Shown here one piece after another: positions 9,738 to 24,349 of a stretch of DNA of 47,098 nt. The position numbers and the translations under genes were made by a program. The notes beneath the pieces were generated by a model that did not search any database, was not told where the DNA came from, and saw nothing but the letters and a program-made list of their open reading frames with translations. The stretch spans positions 27,703-74,800 of the forward strand of contig DYMK01000006.1 in the NCBI GenBank assembly GCA_020721585.1, written 5' to 3'. How positions within the stretch are numbered: position 1 is the first letter of the stretch; every line of letters starts with the position of its first letter. The DNA comes from Sulfuricurvum sp. (GTDB taxonomy: Bacteria > Campylobacterota > Campylobacteria > Campylobacterales > Sulfurimonadaceae).

Positions 9738-10439
9738 ATGGTGATTTTTTTGGATACCGAAACGACGGGATTGCAAAACGGTGATCGTATATGTGCTATT
9801 GGTTTTGTGGAGGAGGGAACATCCCATTATGAGGTGATTCATCCTCAGAAAAAAATTCCCCCCTCAGCCTCTGCTATTCACCATATCACCAATGAGATGG
9901 TTGCCGATGCCCCCGTTTTTAACGTATCCCAAAGTTACCATAAACTCCAAGCGTATAATCTTTGTGAGAACGTTTTGGTCTCCCACAATGCCCCTTTTGA
10001 TCTGACAATGTTGGAAAAAGAGGGGATTGTTTGGCAGGGAAAAGTGATCGATACCCTTAAATGTTCCAAAGCGTTGATGGAGGATTTAGAGGGGTATAGC
10101 TTGCAATTTTTGCGCTATGAAGTGCGATTGTATCGTCAGGAAAAAGACTATTTTGGGGAGTATGGGGTAGCCATTATGCCGCATCATCCTCTCAGTGACG
10201 CGCTTCATACCAAGATGATGTATGAGTATCTTTTGGATTTGACGGATGAAGCGCAATTGATTGCTTTATCGAATCAGCGGTTATTGCTCACACGTCTCCC
10301 CTTTGGAAAATACGCCAAAAAACGCCTTGAGACCATTGCCCTAAAAGACCCCCGTTATTTGCAGTGGATGGTGGAGAGTTTGGTCGATATGGATGAGGAT
10401 TTGCGCTACAGTATTGAGTACTACCTAAGAAGGTTATGA
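9738..10439 (+). CDS. DEDDh 3'-5' exonuclease, DnaQ/ExoX-like
   Basis: A 233-residue exonuclease with the DEDDh residues in place: D-x-E (LDTETTG, residues 6-8), a middle Asp in SHNAPFDLTML, and the final H-x4-D (HHPLSD). After the nuclease fold comes LPFGKYAKKRLETIALKDPRYLQWM, which resembles the ExoX C-terminal domain (PFGK...YLxW). It should degrade single-stranded DNA 3'-5' in repair, or act as a proofreader; an epsilon-subunit role for DnaE is the alternative, but the ExoX-like tail argues for repair. Its stop overlaps the convergent GGDEF-EAL gene by 6 bases. Confidence 0.8.
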   Translation: MVIFLDTETTGLQNGDRICAIGFVEEGTSHYEVIHPQKKIPPSASAIHHITNEMVADAPVFNVSQSYHKLQAYNLCENVLVSHNAPFDLTMLEKEGIVWQGKVIDTLKCSKALMEDLEGYSLQFLRYEVRLYRQEKDYFGEYGVAIMPHHPLSDALHTKMMYEYLLDLTDEAQLIALSNQRLLLTRLPFGKYAKKRLETIALKDPRYLQWMVESLVDMDEDLRYSIEYYLRRL

Positions 10440-12854
10440 ATGGTTTACAATAAATGTTTTAAACGCCTCTAAGGGGAGGGGTTTGGAGTAGTAATACCCT
10501 TGAATCTCATCGCACTGATGCTCTTTGAGAAAATTCAGTTGTGCTTGTGTCTCAACCCCTTCGGCGGTTAACGCGAGATTAAACGTTTTGGCTAAGGCGA
10601 TGATGGCATTGACTACCGCAACGCTCTCCGATGAAAACGGCAGATCATCGACAAACGATTTATCAATTTTGAGTCGGGTAATGGGGAGCTTACGCAAATA
10701 ACTTAGCGACGAGTACCCCGTCCCAAAATCGTCAATGGCAATATCGACCCCTTTGGTGCGTAACGCTTGGAGGGTATGCAGTGCTTTATGTTGTTCGGTC
10801 GCCAAATAGCTTTCGGTGATCTCTAATTCCAGTTGTTGGGAGGCAATCCCTGTGGTGGTAATAACATTTTCGAGGGTTTGCACCATATCGCTTTTGTGGA
10901 GTTGGAGACTTGAGACATTAACACTGATGTGTTTTAAGAGGTACCCCTCGTCCATCAAATGGACAAAGTCGTGACACGCTTGGTGTAAAATCCACTCTCC
11001 CAAGGGTATGATAAGTCCTGATTCTTCCGCAAGGGGGATAAAACGGTCAGGATAGACCATCCCAAGGGTGCTACTGTCCCACCGAATCAATGCTTCTGCC
11101 CCCATAATTTTACCCGTATAGGGGGAGACTTTGGGCTGATAGAGGAGGTAAAACTCATGTTTGGTTTCTATAGCGGTTTTGAGGGCATGGAGATGGTCGT
11201 TATGTTTTTGGAGATGGATAGCAAGATCGGTGGAAAAAAAGCTAAAGGTATTGCGCCCTTTGTTTTTGGATTGGTATAACGCCAAATCGGCATATTTGAT
11301 TAACGAGACAAGATTTTCCCCATCCTCGGGAAAGAGGGAAATACCGATGCTAGCGGTGATAAAAATGGTATTTTCTGCCAATTCAAACGGAGTATTAAAA
11401 AGATGGACAAGGGTTTTTGCCAAATTAAGAAGGGTAGAAATATCGAAAAAATCTTCGATTAAGAGGGTAAATTCATCCCCTCCCATACGCGCTAAGAGGT
11501 TTTTTTGAGGTAAGGCTTGGGTGAGTCGAAAGGCGACGTTTTGCAACAGTTCATCGCCAATATCATGCCCTAAGGTGTCATTAATCGCTTTAAAATCGTC
11601 CAAATCCAAAAAAATCACCGCAAGGGTGGTGTTATGGCGTTGCGCTAGGGTAATGGCGCGTTCCAAAGAGGCATAAAAAAGTCGTCGGTTGGCAAGTCCG
11701 GTGAGGGTATCGGTGTTGGAGAGGTGTTCGAGCTGGTGTTGCGACGCTTGGAGTGCTTTTTCCCGTTTATCAATGGTTTGTGCCAATGCGTTGAGTTCGT
11801 GTGAGAGGGTTTGAAACTCATCATTGGTATGCAATGCAGGGCTATGGGTATAGTCATGTTGATCGATTTTTTGGATTTGACGCATAAGGGTATCCAGGGG
11901 TTGGGCTAATGTATGGTTAAGGATATAATGTGAAACCGCTAAAGCAATAAAAGCGATGGTGATCACCAAAAGTAAAAAAGTTTGTCGATTTTCACGCAGT
12001 GTAGTATCTAAAAAATGGTTATTTAAGCGTGCTACCACATAAAAAGGGGTAGGTGTTGGCATAGCGATACTGCCAAGATAGGGTTGATCGGCACGGGGAG
12101 TTTGGAGCGTTGCAGGGTTATAGTGGGGATCATTACTCCCAAAAAGATTGACATCTCCCCCCTCAGCAAGGGAGCTAAAATAGGCACTTCCCATGGTATA
12201 GGCAAGGGTGATAGAGACCAAATTTTGGTGCGTTTTGGGGTCTTTGAACGATTGATTGGCTTGGATGGTGAGGGTATTGGCATGCGTTTTGTAGCTGATG
12301 GGTGCGTTTGAATGGGGTGGTGCGATTCGTGACACATAGGGCTTAGGGAGATAGGTCGTTTGGTTTTCATAACGGCTTAAGCAGATGGGCTTTCCATGGG
12401 TATACGAGATCACATTCAGCTCATACCCCTTGGGTGTTTTGGTCACGTATGCGATGGGATCGTGGTTGTGATCGTAGGCAACAATTTCGCTATTGAGGGA
12501 GAGTTTGACCCGATAAAGCAATTGTTGCGCAATCTTTTTTTTCTCTTCATCTAAGAGTATAGCAGGATAATTTTGGGTGTCTTGGTAGTTATTAATGAGT
12601 TCGATTGAGGCGATAAAAGATTCATCATCTTGGATAAACAAGACCCCCTCTCGTAACTCTTTTTTGATCAAAGCAACCCGTGTAGTAAAATGGTCAAGGG
12701 TATAGTTTATCCGCTGTTGGGCTTGTTCGCGGTATTTTTGCGCTAAAAACGTGTTAAAGTAGATTTGTAAAATGGTCACCGTCATTACGATAGAGACGAT
12801 CAGGAAAAACGAAAGTTTATTGGCGAGATTAAACGATTTTGGTCGATACAGCAT
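10434..12854 (-). CDS. Membrane GGDEF-EAL c-di-GMP synthase/phosphodiesterase
   Basis: 806 residues: TM1 (about 14-33), a large periplasmic sensor region (34-290), TM2 (291-312), HAMP, a GGDEF domain with intact GGDEF at 458-462, and an EAL domain with EAL at 587-589, NVSS, ELEITES, DDFGTGYSS (708 on), KIDKSF, AEGVET and QGYYYSKPL. All catalytic phosphodiesterase residues are present. The inhibitory RxxD I-site before GGDEF is absent (PQKN instead). It can therefore in principle both make and degrade c-di-GMP, with balance set by the periplasmic domain. Its ATG overlaps the stop of the upstream binding-protein gene as TAATG, so the two proteins are made together; the binding protein is the obvious candidate input. 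Confidence 0.93.
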   Translation of the reverse strand: MLYRPKSFNLANKLSFFLIVSIVMTVTILQIYFNTFLAQKYREQAQQRINYTLDHFTTRVALIKKELREGVLFIQDDESFIASIELINNYQDTQNYPAILLDEEKKKIAQQLLYRVKLSLNSEIVAYDHNHDPIAYVTKTPKGYELNVISYTHGKPICLSRYENQTTYLPKPYVSRIAPPHSNAPISYKTHANTLTIQANQSFKDPKTHQNLVSITLAYTMGSAYFSSLAEGGDVNLFGSNDPHYNPATLQTPRADQPYLGSIAMPTPTPFYVVARLNNHFLDTTLRENRQTFLLLVITIAFIALAVSHYILNHTLAQPLDTLMRQIQKIDQHDYTHSPALHTNDEFQTLSHELNALAQTIDKREKALQASQHQLEHLSNTDTLTGLANRRLFYASLERAITLAQRHNTTLAVIFLDLDDFKAINDTLGHDIGDELLQNVAFRLTQALPQKNLLARMGGDEFTLLIEDFFDISTLLNLAKTLVHLFNTPFELAENTIFITASIGISLFPEDGENLVSLIKYADLALYQSKNKGRNTFSFFSTDLAIHLQKHNDHLHALKTAIETKHEFYLLYQPKVSPYTGKIMGAEALIRWDSSTLGMVYPDRFIPLAEESGLIIPLGEWILHQACHDFVHLMDEGYLLKHISVNVSSLQLHKSDMVQTLENVITTTGIASQQLELEITESYLATEQHKALHTLQALRTKGVDIAIDDFGTGYSSLSYLRKLPITRLKIDKSFVDDLPFSSESVAVVNAIIALAKTFNLALTAEGVETQAQLNFLKEHQCDEIQGYYYSKPLPLEAFKTFIVNHS

Positions 12855-17521: not shown

Positions 17522-18329
17522 CAAAACAAATAGCGCACTGTGGATAAATGCCCTTGTGTTGGGGTTTATCCTTATCGCTTCTTTTTTGGGTTCGTTTTTG
17601 ATTGGTATTGACCCCAATTATTTGGATAAACACGCCATTTTACTCCCCCCCTCGTGTGACCATTGGTTGGGAACCGATCGATTGGGACGCGATTTGTTGG
17701 CACGCTTATTGGAAGGGGGAAGTATCTCGTTGATCATCGGATTAAGCAGTGCGACATTATCTACCTTTATTGGGGTGTTGTATGGGGTGAGTGCCGCGTT
17801 TTTACGGGGGGGGTATGACAAACTTTTTATCGTTATGGTTGACCTTTTTTTGACCTTTCCTACCCTCTTTTTGTTATTAACGCTCGCCAGCTATGTCAAT
17901 GCGTCGGTGTGGGTGTTGATTTTTATCATCTCCCTTACGGGATGGATGGGAACCGCACGATTGATCCGTTCGGAGAGTTTTGCGATTGCCTCTAAACCGT
18001 ATATCCGCATTCTTCAACTAGGTGGTGTCTCTCCCGTGAAAATTATGCTCAAATATTATGCCCCCTTATTAGCTCCACTGGTTTTGGTCAATTTTACCTT
18101 TGGGGTTGGGGGGGCGATTTTAGCCGAATCGGGACTGTCGTTTCTGGGATTGGGGATTACCGCCCCTCAGATGAGTTGGGGAAGTATCTTAAGCAATGGT
18201 AAAGAGGTGATGGACATTGCGTGGTGGGTGAGTTTTTTCCCCGGATTACTGATCTTTTTGGTCACATTTTCACTCATGAATCTCTCCAATGCCCTCCAAA
18301 AACGGTGGAGTCAAAAAGAGGTACGATAA
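17514..18329 (+). CDS. ABC transporter permease, DppC/OppC type
   Basis: 271 residues, taking ATG 17514, which overlaps the rsmD stop; the frame is open further upstream but only inside rsmD. It has an OppC-type N-terminus (TM1, then HWLGTDRLGRDLLARLLEGG), several TM helices, and the EAA-like loop (SFAIASKPYIRILQLGGVSPVKIMLKYY) that contacts the ATPase. It should be one of two permeases of a peptide/nickel importer in the inner membrane. No DppB, binding protein or ATPase gene is present in the window, so its partners must be elsewhere. Substrate unknown. Confidence 0.88.
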   Translation: MRNKTNSALWINALVLGFILIASFLGSFLIGIDPNYLDKHAILLPPSCDHWLGTDRLGRDLLARLLEGGSISLIIGLSSATLSTFIGVLYGVSAAFLRGGYDKLFIVMVDLFLTFPTLFLLLTLASYVNASVWVLIFIISLTGWMGTARLIRSESFAIASKPYIRILQLGGVSPVKIMLKYYAPLLAPLVLVNFTFGVGGAILAESGLSFLGLGITAPQMSWGSILSNGKEVMDIAWWVSFFPGLLIFLVTFSLMNLSNALQKRWSQKEVR

Positions 18330-18344
18330 CATCCGTTATCGTAC
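18321..18344. terminator. Perfect 10-bp inverted repeat covering both convergent stop codons
   Basis: gtacgataac (18321-18330) and gttatcgtac (18335-18344) are perfect reverse complements with a 4-base loop. The stop of the permease gene lies in the left arm and the stop of the yfiR-like gene in the right arm. The symmetry suits a bidirectional terminator or mRNA 3'-end stabiliser, but there is no long T-tract. Confidence 0.6.
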
Positions 18345-18872
18345 GATTCGCGCCATCTCAAAAAGAATATCAGGAAAACTAAAACGTCCATCCTTCATCG
18401 CTTTGGCATTCATCAAAATCACAGGGGAACGTTCCATCTGAACGGAAAGTAGTATCCCATCATCCCCTAATTTATCCGCATCGTACAATGCCGTAATCGT
18501 ATCGGCAGCACTTGCGGTATTATGTACTTTTTTAAGTTGAGAGAGAGACCCTTTGAGGGCATAGATGAAGTGAAAGGATTGTGAATCATCCAGTTGATCA
18601 AACGAGAGGGTGGTAACTTGAATGGGGTGACCATTGATTACTCCATGAGATTTACCCAACAAAATTTTCACACACATCGAAGCGGTCTCTTCATCCCCAC
18701 GATCGTAGGCAATAAGAATTTTCATGGGAGCTTTAGGCTTGGTAAATGCGAGATTTTTTTCCAATAAGGCAATCTTTGGAAGTAAATTTAACTGGGTTCT
18801 TAATAAAAAAGGGTCATACGATGCTGCTAATGCTAGTGTACTGAAGGTCAGTACCATGAGGATATGTTTCAA
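18336..18872 (-). CDS. YfiR-like periplasmic protein (DUF4154-type)
   Basis: 178 residues with a signal peptide (ILMVLTFSTLALAAS) and a YfiR-like layout: an early helix (FLLRTQLNLLPKIALLEKNL), the strand MKILIAYDR, a central segment ending in FIYALKGS, and the closing pattern SPVILMNAKAMKDGRFSFPDILFEMARIV, close to YfiR's final inxxaakxxglxxsxxlLxlAxvv. In Pseudomonas, YfiR restrains the diguanylate cyclase YfiN from the periplasm. Its TTG start overlaps the TonB receptor stop (TTGA) and has GGGGGA upstream. A divergent YfiN-like GGDEF-EAL gene lies 2.8 kb away in the same locus. Only one Cys is visible, so the disulfides of P. aeruginosa YfiR are not conserved. Family call is moderately sure. 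Confidence 0.65.
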   Translation of the reverse strand: MKHILMVLTFSTLALAASYDPFLLRTQLNLLPKIALLEKNLAFTKPKAPMKILIAYDRGDEETASMCVKILLGKSHGVINGHPIQVTTLSFDQLDDSQSFHFIYALKGSLSQLKKVHNTASAADTITALYDADKLGDDGILLSVQMERSPVILMNAKAMKDGRFSFPDILFEMARIVR

Positions 18873-20932
18873 AACGTCCCCCTTAAGGTAATGAGATACG
18901 TACGCCCCATCCCCGGATAATCGCTGCTGTAGGTATTTATGGGCGAAGGGTACAGTTGCGTTTGATTAAACATATTTTTCACCGAGAATTGAATTTCACT
19001 GTGCAACTGAGGTAATGTGTATCCAACCGTACCATCCATACTACTTACCTCCTGCATACTGGGACGTGGGTCAAGTGAGTAGCGTGTAATTTTGCTTTGC
19101 CAGCGTCCTGAGAGGGAAGTATACCAATTTTGATCCCAATTATACGTAACAAATCCCGATACCGTATGCATATGAGCATCCGGAAGGGTCGCGCCATTGG
19201 CATGCCCTATAATACGGGTATAGGTGGTATAAAACGAGAGGGTATCATATCGCTTGCGCCACTCGGTCTCAAATCCTGTAATGGTGCTACTTAAACCATT
19301 AATATACTTAAATCCATTACTTCCATCAGGAAGAAGCGTGCTTTGAAGAAAAATTTGGTTTTCATTTTTAAGCTGAAACAAATTCATTGAGAGCGTATGG
19401 TTCAGCCCAAAGTTATGAATAAATTGGGTTTCGTATGCCATGACGCTTTCAGCTTTCAGATCAGGATTTCCCCATCGAGCGTTATTATTAAGGGTAAACA
19501 TCTCTTGCCATGAGGGGTTTCGATGAGCGCGGGAGACAGAGAATTTCAGTACATTATCGGGATTAATGGTATAAATGGTCGCAATACGGGGATCCCATCG
19601 GGGGGCTAATTGATTATGTTTGTTCAGTGTTAACGAAAAATACCCCATCCACGAACGGCTTAAGGGGTGTTCGTAAGTGAGATAGGCAGAAAAATCATTC
19701 ATCGCACTGTGGGGTTCCATAAACGGACGTGTCGCAGAGTAATCGACCAATCCCACCCCCGTGGAACGATCGGTATTAATCGTAGTCTCTTCGATGAGGG
19801 AACTGCGTGATTTTTTGATCCCAAAGGTTCCCTCGCCCCCTCCGATGATCCCCGTAAGGGTGTTACTCACCCAATAGGTACGGATCATGGTCTCATTAAC
19901 GCTGTAAAAACCATTAGGGTAAGTAATAGGAAGAAAAGGGGCAGTAATAGAACGAAGAACAATGCCTTGGGGTGCAACAAGACCGTAACTGCCAAAATGG
20001 TCTTGTATCATCGACCCTTGCAATGTGCCGCTAAACTCCCCTATGTTGTAGTGGGAGCCTAGTCGAAGAGAGCTTTGGTTCACATTATAATGATCCTCAT
20101 TCGATGCGAGCGCGTAGTTCATCCCCCCGCCCGCTCCGTGGCGATAGAGTGAAAATCGTCCATCGGCGAAAAACGATCCTTTGCTAAGAGTCGCGGAAAG
20201 CACCGTCGTGTCGGTTCCCAGTGGCGCGCTTCCCGATTGGGAGAGGGGTGCATTAATTGCGCCAAAAATATTGTTAGCAAGTCCATCTTTGCCATAGTTA
20301 AGGGCAAGCGTGTTATGGAGTGTGTAGACATCAATACCAAAAGCAAAATCATCACGGGTAGCGTTATATGCTCCCCCCACTTGAGAGCTTCCGTAGCTTC
20401 CTGCTGAGGCGAACCAACGGCCACTTTGATCGGCAGAAGGCTCTTTTTTGTAGGTGGTGACGACGATCGATCCTGCGTATCCCCAATGCCCATCGCTGTA
20501 TCCCCCAGGACCACGTACTACTTCGATCCGTTTTATGAGATCAATGGGCATCGAAAGATACGCGCTATAGCCATCGAAGTTGAGATCATTGACCTCTATT
20601 CCATCGATGATGAGTTTGCTCTGACCGTATGCGCTAGAGTTGGAACCTCGGATGATGGGATTAAATAAGGAGACATTATCAGTAGAGATATTGACCCCTG
20701 CTACGAGAGAGAGGGCATCTTTGAGTGAATTTGCCCCCGCATGGGAGAGTTCATCTCCCTCAAATACGCTCATGATAAAAGGGAGATAGTCGATATTCGC
20801 CCGCTGTACGGTGGCAGTTTGGGTAATCTCGGTTAGCTCATGGGTCAGATCTTGCAATCCATTGGACTCTTCTTCTGTGGCAAAAACGGCAAAGGGGATA
20901 AGCAACAATGCCAAAGAAAAACGGGTCCTCAC
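18869..20932 (-). CDS. TonB-dependent outer-membrane receptor
   Basis: 687 residues: a signal peptide (FSLALLLIPFAVFA), an N-terminal plug domain (MSVFEGDELSHAGANSLKDAL, ...IIRGSN, KLIIDGIEVND, IKRIEVVRGPGG) and a 22-strand-type barrel with alternating aromatic strands ending in the terminal aromatic residue (TYLITLRGTF). It should import or sense a ligand across the outer membrane using TonB-ExbBD energy. The ligand is unknown; siderophore, vitamin B12 or a self-made acyl signal are possible. The GTG start overlaps the stop of the acyltransferase gene (GTGA) and its stop overlaps the yfiR-like gene, so all three are co-translated. Confidence 0.92.
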   Translation of the reverse strand: MRTRFSLALLLIPFAVFATEEESNGLQDLTHELTEITQTATVQRANIDYLPFIMSVFEGDELSHAGANSLKDALSLVAGVNISTDNVSLFNPIIRGSNSSAYGQSKLIIDGIEVNDLNFDGYSAYLSMPIDLIKRIEVVRGPGGYSDGHWGYAGSIVVTTYKKEPSADQSGRWFASAGSYGSSQVGGAYNATRDDFAFGIDVYTLHNTLALNYGKDGLANNIFGAINAPLSQSGSAPLGTDTTVLSATLSKGSFFADGRFSLYRHGAGGGMNYALASNEDHYNVNQSSLRLGSHYNIGEFSGTLQGSMIQDHFGSYGLVAPQGIVLRSITAPFLPITYPNGFYSVNETMIRTYWVSNTLTGIIGGGEGTFGIKKSRSSLIEETTINTDRSTGVGLVDYSATRPFMEPHSAMNDFSAYLTYEHPLSRSWMGYFSLTLNKHNQLAPRWDPRIATIYTINPDNVLKFSVSRAHRNPSWQEMFTLNNNARWGNPDLKAESVMAYETQFIHNFGLNHTLSMNLFQLKNENQIFLQSTLLPDGSNGFKYINGLSSTITGFETEWRKRYDTLSFYTTYTRIIGHANGATLPDAHMHTVSGFVTYNWDQNWYTSLSGRWQSKITRYSLDPRPSMQEVSSMDGTVGYTLPQLHSEIQFSVKNMFNQTQLYPSPINTYSSDYPGMGRTYLITLRGTF

Positions 20933-21528
20933 GCACTCTCCTTAGAAAAAGTTGGATCATTATTGATTTTAAGATTAATAGGACAGTGGTTTGGTATTGT
21001 ATGCTTTTCAATAGGATCAAGTCCCAAGTAAAGTCCTGTATACTTTTGAGGAGAACCTATCAAACGATAACCCAATTTAGCATATTCAAGAAGGCGTAAA
21101 AAGGTAGGTTCTACTGCTGCAATTAAACGTACAATATTGTACATATTGGCGATACGATTAACTTCTTTATCAATTGCTTTAAGTGCTTGAATACTTTTTT
21201 TTAAAGTTCGATGGGGTGGAATAACCGTCATACGCGAAATTTCAGCAGTTTGAGTTGACGGTTCAAATACTTCTATATCAATATCCATAGCTTTAAGAGT
21301 AGGAAGATTAATGGAAGCATTTGGGAGAATAAGTCGACAGGAACCAATTAAAGTGCTTTTTTCCCAAATTCCTAAAAAAACTGCATGATCATCATATTGG
21401 TCGTGTTCTATAGGAACACCATCTTCACGAGGAATGAAAAAATTTAACTCTTCAACAAATACATCGTGTCGTTGTCGCAAGATAGCATCTCGTTCATCTT
21501 TTGTTGAAGCAGTTCTACAAGTAATCAT
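20929..21528 (-). CDS. LuxI-superfamily N-acyltransferase (autoinducer-synthase/FeeM-like)
   Basis: 199 residues from ATG 21528, which has AAAAGGGACG just upstream; the frame opens earlier at 21570. The pattern of invariant LuxI-family residues is present with matching spacing: Arg20, Phe24, Asp43, Asp46, Arg65 (CRLILP) and Glu96 with Arg99 (AEISRM). The usual Trp is Phe30. These correspond to Arg24, Phe28, Asp45, Asp48, Arg70, Glu101, Arg104 and Trp34 of acyl-homoserine-lactone synthases as I recall them. The GNAT-like family also includes FeeM N-acyl-amino-acid synthases and exosortase-associated acyltransferases. It should transfer an acyl chain from acyl-ACP or acyl-CoA to an amine. No LuxR-type gene is nearby. 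First gene of the operon with the TonB receptor and yfiR-like gene. Confidence 0.7.
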   Translation of the reverse strand: MITCRTASTKDERDAILRQRHDVFVEELNFFIPREDGVPIEHDQYDDHAVFLGIWEKSTLIGSCRLILPNASINLPTLKAMDIDIEVFEPSTQTAEISRMTVIPPHRTLKKSIQALKAIDKEVNRIANMYNIVRLIAAVEPTFLRLLEYAKLGYRLIGSPQKYTGLYLGLDPIEKHTIPNHCPINLKINNDPTFSKESA

Positions 21529-21559
21529 TACGTCCCTTTTTTGGCTGAATTGTGGTTGA

Positions 21560-21565
21560 AATATA
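21560..21565 (-). promoter_or_regulatory. Possible -10 box for the acyltransferase-TonB-yfiR operon
   Basis: TATATT on the minus strand, 31 bases ahead of the ATG at 21528, in the divergent intergenic region. Confidence 0.35.
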
Positions 21566-21628
21566 GTCAAATAGCCTTTAAGTACGACTGAAAAAGGGCA
21601 TTAAAGAGGGATTAAATAAACTTTAGAC

Positions 21629-21634
21629 TAAAAT
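21629..21634 (+). promoter_or_regulatory. Possible -10 box for the YfiN-like GGDEF-EAL gene
   Basis: TAAAAT on the plus strand, giving an expected leader of about 60 bases that contains the hairpin at 21645-21662. Confidence 0.3.
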
Positions 21635-21644
21635 AACACCCTTT

Positions 21645-21662
21645 ACGAATAAAAATATTCGT
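21645..21662 (+). promoter_or_regulatory. Inverted repeat in the leader of the GGDEF-EAL gene
   Basis: acgaata (21645-21651) and tattcgt (21656-21662) are perfect reverse complements with an AAAA loop, placed between the predicted -10 box and the start codon. It could be an operator for a dimeric regulator or an RNA hairpin; the T-tract expected of a terminator is missing. Confidence 0.4.
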
Positions 21663-21701
21663 TGATGAGGATGATTTAAATCATTTATAGAAGGCACATT
21701 G

Positions 21702-23630
21702 ATGGCATATATGGCTAAAGCTCCGCTCTCCAATAAAATTGTTATCTCTCTTGTTGTGATGTTTTTAGTGATTGCTGTGACCCTTGGGGTAGTCGTGAGT
21801 ATGGTTTTTGAAAATACCATCTTAGCATCCGAAAAGCAAAAAGCTGATCTCTTAGTTAAAACTATCGAAAAGCCAATGCAAATTGCTTTGTACCTCAAGT
21901 TTTACGATCAGATTGCTGAAAAAGTTACCCCTGTGATTTTGGTTCCAGATGTGACAAAATTAGTGGTTTCTGATCATAAAGGGAAAGTACTCTATACCTA
22001 TGAAAGTAAGGCAGTAGGAAGTGGACGGCATGAACCCATTGTCCTTGAGCGTAAGATGTACGAACCCCTTTCCAAAAATAAGCTGATGGGGACAATCACC
22101 TTAAGTTACAGTGATTTAGCGTACGATGCAACCCGACATTCTATTCTTGAAATTGTCTATGGAGTAGCATTCCTTATGGCTGTTCTCTTTTTTGTCGCAG
22201 CGTGGTGGATCCGCTATCTTCTCTCCCCTTTGAATATTATCGCGACAAAAGTTCGGGATTATACCCCTGGGAATGCTGTAGTGCTTGATGAGCATGGGAG
22301 TGTAGAGATCGAACAAATTGTAAGTGCTTTTAATACTATGCAAGAAACCTCACAAGACTATTTTTGGCAAATCGAATCAATCAATGCCTCATTAGAGCAA
22401 ATAGTGGAAGAAAAAACCCATAAACTGGTCGAACAATATTATACCGATCAATTAACCGGCTTGCCCAATCGATACCAACTGCAAGAGCGATTGCAACACA
22501 ATGATGTGGTCGCTTTGGCCATTTTGAATATTGATGACTTTAGAGAGCTTAATGACTTTTTTGGAATTGTCATTGGGGATGAAATGCTGGTTCATATGGG
22601 GGAATGGCTTAGAGAGGTCTCTTCCTTGTGTTACCGCCTTGGGGGAGATGAATTTGCGATTCTCTTTACCGAAACCGCATTGAATCAGATGGAACTGGAG
22701 CATCGCTTAATGCGTCTTATTGGGTTGTTGGATGCTAAAACGTTTACGATTAATACCGATGAGAGTCTCCGATTACGGGTGACGATTGGGGTCACTTTAG
22801 GGGCTGAAAAGGCGTTAACACGGGCGGATATCGCCCTTAATCGAGCTAAAAAAGATAAAAAACAGGTCGCTTTTTACAACCAAGATGAAGGGGTCGAAGA
22901 GCAGTATCGCTCTAATATGCTCATGGCGGCTAGCGTTAGAAAAGCACTTTTTGAACATCGATTTGTGTGCCATTATCAACCCATTGTAAATTTAAAAACG
23001 GGCATTACTGACAAATATGAAACGTTGATCCGCATGCTGGATGAAGAGGGGAATTTGGTTCCCCCAATGAAATTTCTCCCCATTGCTAAACAAACGAAGC
23101 TTTATCCTCAAATTACCCTTGAAATGGTGTCTCAAGCGTGTACTCTTTTTGCCACACGAACCGAAGAGTTCTCTATGAACGTCTCCGATAGTGATATTCG
23201 TAACGTGGAAACCGTCCAAGAAATTATTAAAATCATCACCAATACGGGAGTCGCCTCTCGGGTGGTTTTTGAAATTTTGGAATCTGAGGGGATTGAAAGT
23301 TACGATGATGTTTCGCTCTTTATTGAACAAGTCAAAGCACTGGGGGCGAAAATTGCGATTGATGATTTTGGAACGGGCTATTCTAATTTTGAAAATATTC
23401 TAAAACTCAATGTTGATTATGTCAAAATAGATGGTTCGTTGATACGAGGAATTGCTAATCATCAACGTCACCGTATTATCGTAGAGACCATCGTTGATTT
23501 TGCTCGTAAAATTGGGGCAAAAACCATTGCCGAATTTGTCTCCGATGAAGAGACGTATGAAGCTATTTGTACCCTTGGAATAGATTATTCTCAAGGCTAC
23601 TTTACCGGTAAGCCAATCCCCCTTCCTTAA
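21702..23630 (+). CDS. YfiN-like membrane GGDEF-EAL protein
   Basis: 642 residues from ATG 21702 (AAGG seven bases ahead). TM1 (13-36), about 110 periplasmic residues (KADLLVKTIEKPMQIALYL..., KLVVSDHKGKVLYTY) that resemble the CHASE8 sensor of YfiN/TpbB, TM2 (149-171), HAMP, GGDEF with the motif intact at 314-318, and EAL. The EAL motif reads E440-T-L442; Glu and Leu are kept, and NVS, FEILES, DDFGTGYSN, KIDGS and QGYFTGKP are present, so phosphodiesterase activity is plausible. The RxxD I-site is missing (EVSS). Divergent from an operon encoding a YfiR-like protein and TonB receptor, which are its likely periplasmic and outer-membrane inputs. Confidence 0.88.
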   Translation: MAYMAKAPLSNKIVISLVVMFLVIAVTLGVVVSMVFENTILASEKQKADLLVKTIEKPMQIALYLKFYDQIAEKVTPVILVPDVTKLVVSDHKGKVLYTYESKAVGSGRHEPIVLERKMYEPLSKNKLMGTITLSYSDLAYDATRHSILEIVYGVAFLMAVLFFVAAWWIRYLLSPLNIIATKVRDYTPGNAVVLDEHGSVEIEQIVSAFNTMQETSQDYFWQIESINASLEQIVEEKTHKLVEQYYTDQLTGLPNRYQLQERLQHNDVVALAILNIDDFRELNDFFGIVIGDEMLVHMGEWLREVSSLCYRLGGDEFAILFTETALNQMELEHRLMRLIGLLDAKTFTINTDESLRLRVTIGVTLGAEKALTRADIALNRAKKDKKQVAFYNQDEGVEEQYRSNMLMAASVRKALFEHRFVCHYQPIVNLKTGITDKYETLIRMLDEEGNLVPPMKFLPIAKQTKLYPQITLEMVSQACTLFATRTEEFSMNVSDSDIRNVETVQEIIKIITNTGVASRVVFEILESEGIESYDDVSLFIEQVKALGAKIAIDDFGTGYSNFENILKLNVDYVKIDGSLIRGIANHQRHRIIVETIVDFARKIGAKTIAEFVSDEETYEAICTLGIDYSQGYFTGKPIPLP

Positions 23631-23659: not shown

Positions 23660-24349
23660 TTACGCCAAGGGATAAAGGGCGGTGAGGGTTTGGTACAGTT
23701 CTTTGGGGGTCATGTTGGGTTCATCTTCCCATGCGCGCTTCATCACGGCATTGTCTTCCATCCCCTCCCAAATTTTGCGATACGTCCCTTCTTTGTAGCC
23801 ATGATCTTGACGGAATTGGTTGAGGATATTTTTCCCCACATAGAGGCGATAGAGATCTGTGACATTCAGTCCGCCCACGTAGGCTAACTCAAAAAACTCC
23901 TCAATCATTGCCCCTACCATCTCCGCTGAGAGGGGGATCAACGAAAGACGCATCACGTTTTCAATCCGCATCAGTAAAATCTCATCGCTGCCAAAGGGGA
24001 GGGTTTCCTCCACGCTCAGTCCCTGAAATTCGGGGGTTTTGGCGATTCGTTGCGCCAATTCTTCGACACGTTCAGCACCACTACGGGCATTAAACATCAA
24101 TACCAAACTCATCACAAAATGCCACACATCGACAATCTCGATTTGAAGATTGTCATAATCGGTTTGTTGATCAATACTTTTCCAATGTTTCCACCCAAAC
24201 GAATCAATCATTTCAGCCGACTCCATGGTGATACACCGTTGCCAATTGATTTTTTTACCCTTATTGGTCATCCCATTTTCCCACCCTTGACCACTGGTGG
24301 AATCGTTGAGGGTTTGTTGAAGTGTAAACATTGAGAGCAATTTATCCAT
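23660..24349 (-). CDS. dut: Dimeric dUTP diphosphatase
   Basis: 229 residues of the all-alpha dimeric dUTPase/MazG-like superfamily rather than the usual trimeric beta enzyme. The metal-binding motifs are ITMESAEMIDSFGWKHWK and IEIVDVWHFVMS, with paired acidic residues on two helices. It hydrolyses dUTP to dUMP and pyrophosphate, limiting uracil in DNA and feeding dTMP synthesis. Campylobacter uses the same dimeric type. ATG with GGAAT upstream, 27 bases after ttcA; last gene of the long minus-strand run. Confidence 0.9.
   Translation of the reverse strand: MDKLLSMFTLQQTLNDSTSGQGWENGMTNKGKKINWQRCITMESAEMIDSFGWKHWKSIDQQTDYDNLQIEIVDVWHFVMSLVLMFNARSGAERVEELAQRIAKTPEFQGLSVEETLPFGSDEILLMRIENVMRLSLIPLSAEMVGAMIEEFFELAYVGGLNVTDLYRLYVGKNILNQFRQDHGYKEGTYRKIWEGMEDNAVMKRAWEDEPNMTPKELYQTLTALYPLA

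Follow-up and report, generated by a model that had tools for sequence, protein, structure and literature searches.

A four-gene locus of Sulfuricurvum sp. is best explained, in our judgement with about even confidence, as a YfiR-YfiN[PAS]-type signalling module leading from the outer membrane to c-di-GMP, with a TonB-dependent receptor that would stand in for YfiB and an acyltransferase that would be tied on, its product serving as the signal. The module itself, with a TonB receptor in YfiB's place, is well supported. That the acyltransferase product is the ligand of the receptor is the leading reading, which fits the data, is unproven and seems to us close to evenly balanced. In the known YfiBNR system, YfiN is under repression by periplasmic YfiR, which an outer-membrane protein sequesters. 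For the locus described here, the gene layout, the protein families, the predicted YfiR fold, the predicted membrane and PAS-HAMP architecture, the linkage and the single origin of the acyltransferase association were read from sequence and structure prediction.

Organization of the locus

The locus lies within a stretch of 47,098 nucleotides (the window), numbered from its first letter. Its features are:

18336-18872, minus strand: YfiR-like periplasmic protein (178 aa, TTG start, signal-peptide-like hydrophobic N-terminus)
18869-20932, minus strand: TonB-dependent outer-membrane receptor (687 aa; Pfam barrel and plug)
20929-21570, minus strand: N-acyltransferase, Acetyltransf_5/LuxI/FeeM superfamily (ATG at 21528 as probable start)
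21571-21698: divergent intergenic region of 128 bp, separating the GGDEF-EAL gene from the acyltransferase operon
21699-23630, plus strand: inner-membrane GGDEF-EAL protein (Pfam, N-terminal model)
ending at 18329: peptide-type ABC permease gene, convergent neighbour of the module
3' end at 23660: dUTPase-family gene, convergent neighbour of the module

The three minus-strand genes are read in the order acyltransferase, TonB receptor, YfiR-like protein, and the GGDEF-EAL gene is divergent. As the preliminary description had reported, the open reading frames overlap by 4 bases at each of the two junctions, GTGA (20929-20932) between acyltransferase and receptor and TTGA (18869-18872) between receptor and YfiR-like gene. 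In relatives, too, the module genes overlap or are closely spaced, with start-stop overlaps in many loci. The four-gene set is bounded by convergent genes on both sides. Conservation of the intergenic region 21571-21698 is weak among relatives, and their comparison revealed no clear conserved motif in it. The window also encodes a second HAMP-GGDEF-EAL protein of 806 aa (10434-12854, minus strand), 8 kb from the module; its immediate neighbours include no recognised receptor or YfiR gene.

A predicted YfiR fold beside a YfiN-like GGDEF-EAL protein

The YfiR-like protein gave no match to the NCBIfam profiles, and Pfam DUF4154 (PF13689) matched neither in the window nor elsewhere in the organism's own genome. 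We modelled it with AlphaFold2 from a family alignment of 39 sequences (mean pLDDT 80). Results of a Foldseek comparison with the PDB showed that the best 15 matches were all YfiR (E 8e-6 to 1e-4, TM 0.51-0.61), with unrelated proteins beginning at E 1e-3. VIA-align gave Z 12.2-12.9 to YfiR over 141-146 residues, 12.9 being the value for 5eb1, against 11.3 for the top non-YfiR protein, a modest margin in which the leading rows were nonetheless all YfiR. Fold comparison alone succeeded here, as a profile search of PDB sequences with the family yielded nothing useful and hhalign found no significant match between the family profile and the single E. coli YfiR sequence. A sequence bridge is provided by the homologue at locus L131, found with the family profile, which matches DUF4154 at 4.5e-7. 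The label "YfiR-like" of the preliminary description is therefore upheld by the predicted fold and by this bridge, even though DUF4154 misses the window protein itself. Close orthologues (54-66%) occur in 16 genomes of the same genus. P. aeruginosa YfiR has intramolecular disulfides; the window protein has a single cysteine, so such disulfides are impossible there. In three more distant loci (L192:1429-2973, L193:1-2013 and L205:67-1980), DUF4154 lies within far longer open reading frames, apparently fused to a kinase- or cyclase-like part.

The GGDEF-EAL protein is predicted to consist of a transmembrane helix, a PAS/Cache-like periplasmic domain (residues ~36-140), a second transmembrane helix, HAMP (171-216), GGDEF (248-388) and EAL (412-639). 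Pfam recognised EAL (6e-60) and GGDEF (5e-21) over the cut-off and HAMP below it. The N-terminal 242 residues were modelled at pLDDT 87.5 as helix, PAS/Cache-like periplasmic domain, helix and HAMP, and the nearest solved or modelled entries were WalK, the LapD-type periplasmic domain (4u64) and CitA. CitA was also the template of the published model of the YfiN PAS domain (PMC3375315). When the N-terminus alone was compared with the NCBIfam YfiN/DgcN model, it matched below the cut-off (E 7.7e-6), and hhalign of the sensor profile with the single E. coli DgcN sequence gave no significant match. The periplasmic domain had earlier been called "CHASE8-like"; Pfam CHASE8 did not match the sensor, and a definite CHASE8 domain is not supported, the sensor giving instead the sub-cut-off YfiN match and the PAS/Cache-like model.

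In the window protein no GGDEF or EAL motif residue has been lost, and the family as a whole retains nearly all of them; therefore, either enzyme activity may be the output of the module. The protein does not qualify as LapD, either by its score against the LapD equivalog (162.8 of 1020 bits, below cut-off) or by its catalytic motifs, which are intact where LapD has degenerate catalytic domains. In two Sulfuricurvum-type genomes, the place of the acyltransferase is taken by a histidine kinase (L031:6371-7831 and L040:4443-5903) with an N-terminus similar to the GGDEF-EAL sensor, which suggests that one receptor-YfiR pair may feed two outputs.

The preliminary description had the TonB receptor replacing YfiB, and the arrangement agrees with it: a protein with a predicted YfiR fold lies beside a YfiN-like c-di-GMP protein, with the receptor where YfiB would be. 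No OmpA/Pal-like YfiB is found in the operon, the neighbours being the TonB receptor, the ABC permease and the dUTPase. The likeness to YfiBNR of Pseudomonas aeruginosa and E. coli, and to HmsCDE of Yersinia, comprises the periplasmic YfiR fold, the adjacent genes, the outer-membrane partner and an inner-membrane TM-PAS-TM-HAMP protein with GGDEF. Unlike those systems, the window has a TonB receptor instead of the OmpA/Pal-like lipoprotein YfiB, an additional EAL domain and a linked acyltransferase, and its YfiR-like protein is missed by DUF4154 and carries only the one cysteine. According to Malone et al. 2012, the YfiR-YfiN[PAS] core is modular: YfiB is often absent, mostly so at larger distance, and the outputs include GGDEF-EAL or histidine kinase (PMC3375315).

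The receptor and its possible ligands

The receptor is recognised by Pfam over both cut-offs (TonB_dep_Rec, PF00593, 4.1e-18; Plug, PF07715, 8e-15, from residue 51), no N-terminal signalling (STN) domain was detected in it, and TonB is present. It stays under every NCBIfam receptor cut-off, and its best match there, a siderophore receptor subfamily, is also below the cut-off. TonB receptors mainly import metal chelates. Considering this and the subfamily match, the enzyme might make or tailor a metal-binding lipid that the receptor imports, with YfiR and the GGDEF-EAL protein reporting receptor use. We regard such an acylated metallophore as quite improbable, as no genes for siderophore biosynthesis, a periplasmic binding protein or a metal ABC transporter were recognised in the conserved loci, whose neighbours were mostly read by eye, and as those neighbours vary between genera.

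An N-acyltransferase related to LuxI and FeeM

The acyltransferase (ACYLTRANSFERASE) passed the Pfam cut-off for Acetyltransf_5 (PF13444; 2.3e-10, 41.5 bits against 22.4). It was borderline below that for the FeeM N-acyl amino acid synthase (PF21926; 26.0 bits against 27) and below those for Autoind_synth/LuxI (PF00765; 20.2 bits against 24) and exosort_acyl (TIGR03694; 8e-18, 64.7 bits against 111.95). Membership of LuxI, as previously proposed, is thus not sustained at the Pfam cut-off, and the safest label is N-acyltransferase from the superfamily to which LuxI, FeeM and the PEP-CTERM-linked enzymes belong. Compared with the PDB, the family profile matched the AHL synthase 3p2f (E 6e-5). 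With the LuxI AHL synthases and the FeeM/exosortase-type N-acyl amino acid synthases the enzyme shares the superfamily and the conserved R...E.D..D...E.SR residues, the invariant positions of its own family being R34, E55, D57, D60, E110, S112 and R113. It differs from them in scoring below all three cut-offs and in having neither a LuxR partner nor an exosortase in its own genome.

A LuxR-type partner in the genome is usual for LuxI, if not obligatory. The LuxR-type receptor domain (Autoind_bind) is absent from the organism's own genome and from 59 relatives (0/60). Two relatives of the acyltransferase outside the module (L121:6957-8424 and L123:7755-9283) adjoin a gene of the leucine carboxyl methyltransferase family (PF04072, 8e-29 in L121), a hint that the product may be a methylated acyl-amino acid.

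Conservation of the four-gene linkage

Counting the window, 15 orthologous Sulfuricurvum loci extend far enough upstream to be compared, and 11 of them have all four genes; the enzyme is missing from the other four (L031, L033, L034 and L040). In L037 the acyltransferase lies beyond the GGDEF-EAL gene. Across 151 genomes of the family we obtained 36 strong acyltransferase matches, 33 of them at most 6 kb from a YfiR homologue; two of the remaining three are at contig ends and one is unlinked. The four genes also occur together in further genera and families of this order (Sulfurimonas, Nitratiruptor, Hydrogenimonas), usually in tandem as acyltransferase, receptor, YfiR, GGDEF-EAL.

A genome scan queried with the acyltransferase sequence alone, the query being a subset of the acyltransferase alignment, returned 29 Campylobacterota loci beyond Sulfuricurvum (Sulfurimonas, Nitratiruptor, Hydrogenimonas and relatives), which partly repeat genomes of the earlier counts. 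In these loci, receptor, YfiR and GGDEF-EAL genes follow the acyltransferase gene unless the contig ends, with the receptor of L156 broken near a contig end. The 16 acyltransferase matches outside Campylobacterota had no receptor or YfiR neighbours. Co-occurrence in Campylobacterota had been set beforehand as the test on which the idea could fail, and conserved linkage of all four genes was found in relatives. The four-gene arrangement is far beyond chance.

The Sulfuricurvum flanks, a peptide ABC permease and a methyltransferase, are likewise conserved, as they would be if a functionally unrelated acyltransferase were kept in place by vertical synteny. We rejected such hitch-hiking, which we hold to be very improbable, because the linkage is conserved in changed surroundings: the association extends across families with different flanks, the GGDEF-EAL gene being either divergent or tandem, and start-stop overlaps join the genes in many loci.

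Modules without the enzyme and the origin of the association

Next to the more distant YfiR-like proteins of Campylobacterota, too, a TonB receptor is encoded together with an output protein that has GGDEF, GGDEF-EAL or histidine kinase domains. In one batch (L208-L227, table read by eye), the receptor was at most 2 genes from the YfiR gene in 20 of 20 loci. The linkage of receptor, YfiR and output is general in Campylobacterota. In one genome, a classical triad of TonB receptor, DUF4154 and GGDEF genes directly adjoins a triad of receptor, YfiR-like and GGDEF-EAL genes (L061:191-3824).

On the receptor tree, all receptors linked to an acyltransferase in the module fall into one group (SH-aLRT 84). 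The acyltransferase association has one origin on this tree and has been long retained; the enzyme later dropped out about seven times from modules that kept receptor, YfiR and output. L159 was not counted as a loss, as the genome scan matched an acyltransferase gene there. Degraded acyltransferase remnants with stop codons lie upstream of the receptor in L132 (G075) and L133 (G053), where the receptor, YfiR-like and GGDEF-EAL genes are open.

The losses of the enzyme with the rest of the module kept imply that the receptor may have another ligand. The module could be an environmental sensor, its receptor binding an exogenous compound (a nutrient, a siderophore or a metabolite of another species) and signalling through YfiR to the GGDEF-EAL protein, with the acyltransferase making an acyl-amino lipid or surfactant for a biofilm or membrane response rather than supplying the ligand. 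In agreement with this are those same losses, the widespread occurrence of receptor-YfiR modules without the enzyme, and the fact that relatives of the enzyme are tied to PEP-CTERM/exopolysaccharide loci and make surfactant-like N-acyl amino acids (PMC7293339). Two observations speak against it, and we consider it unlikely: across several families the enzyme is the first gene of the receptor operon and not part of a lipid or exopolysaccharide cluster, and in the pooled set it diverges in step with the receptor and not with the output protein.

This last observation comes from a comparison of distances. Given YfiR and GGDEF-EAL distances, acyltransferase and receptor distances had a pooled partial r of 0.75 (p 0.001, within-clade permutation), with values of 0.71, 0.32 and 0.34 within the three clades. 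Acyltransferase distances showed no correlation with YfiR distances in the partial-distance test, and they tracked those of GGDEF-EAL in the most diverse clade only. The pooled within-clade test gave a chain from acyltransferase to receptor to YfiR (0.46 and 0.62); the expected link, co-variation of YfiR with the sensor, was not seen in it. The weak acyltransferase-receptor signal is suggestive only, because neighbouring genes may move together by joint transfer.

A possible route from an acyl product to c-di-GMP

We counted the lack of a LuxR-type receiver, the one origin and the overlapping or close genes in favour of the enzyme making the ligand, a reading that stays unproven because receptors persist without the enzyme. 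In the mechanism that we prefer, the acyltransferase would join a fatty-acyl group to an amino compound, and the acyl product would exit the cell, bind the receptor and perhaps be taken up by it. On the inner face of the outer membrane, the occupied receptor would bind or release the YfiR-like protein differently. The YfiR-like protein would in turn change its grip on the GGDEF-EAL protein, at the PAS-like domain of the latter, and HAMP would relay the change to the catalytic domains, altering c-di-GMP. What we infer is every interaction in this chain, the enzyme's product, its role as ligand and the direction in which c-di-GMP would change. Taken as a whole it would be a quorum-type system, in which a TonB receptor, in place of a cytoplasmic LuxR, perceives an acyl molecule made by the cell, with a YfiR-like relay to a membrane c-di-GMP enzyme, in a lineage without LuxR-type receptors in its sampled members; to this we give tentative credence, somewhat short of an even balance.

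Relation to known systems and significance

Part of the YfiR-TonB pairing has already been noted by curators, as shown by the existence of three NCBIfam models: the TOL_0243 YfiR-like protein (NF053591) and the TOL_0244 receptor (NF053590), a similar pairing with consecutive locus numbers, and HK_near_YfiR_like (NF053592), a sensor kinase named after its YfiR-like neighbour. Campylobacterota relatives, for example L061, match these families below the cut-off; in the window, the receptor reaches 34.8 of 645 bits, the sensor 14.2 of 194 bits, and the YfiR-like protein has no match. Unlike the trio, whose models name no acyltransferase, the window has GGDEF-EAL as output and not a kinase. We found no paper that joins YfiR with a TonB receptor in one system, in a search that covered subscription journals little. 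The ScrABC operon of Vibrio parahaemolyticus resembles the module in having a signal-making enzyme, a signal-binding periplasmic protein and an inner-membrane GGDEF-EAL protein that changes c-di-GMP (PMC11315295). It differs in lacking an outer-membrane receptor and in its components, an aminotransferase (ScrA) and a periplasmic binding protein (ScrB), and the likeness is one of functional analogy only.

The survey of 2012 (PMC3375315) shows a gap, YfiR-YfiN[PAS] modules without YfiB, for which the TonB receptor is a candidate outer-membrane input. In Campylobacterota, whose sampled genomes yielded no LuxR-type receptors, the four genes also offer a concrete candidate for acyl signalling that can be put to the test. 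If the acyl product is indeed the ligand, these sulfur-oxidising chemolithotrophs would have a new way of perceiving acyl signals, and a signal made by the cell would be linked directly to c-di-GMP.
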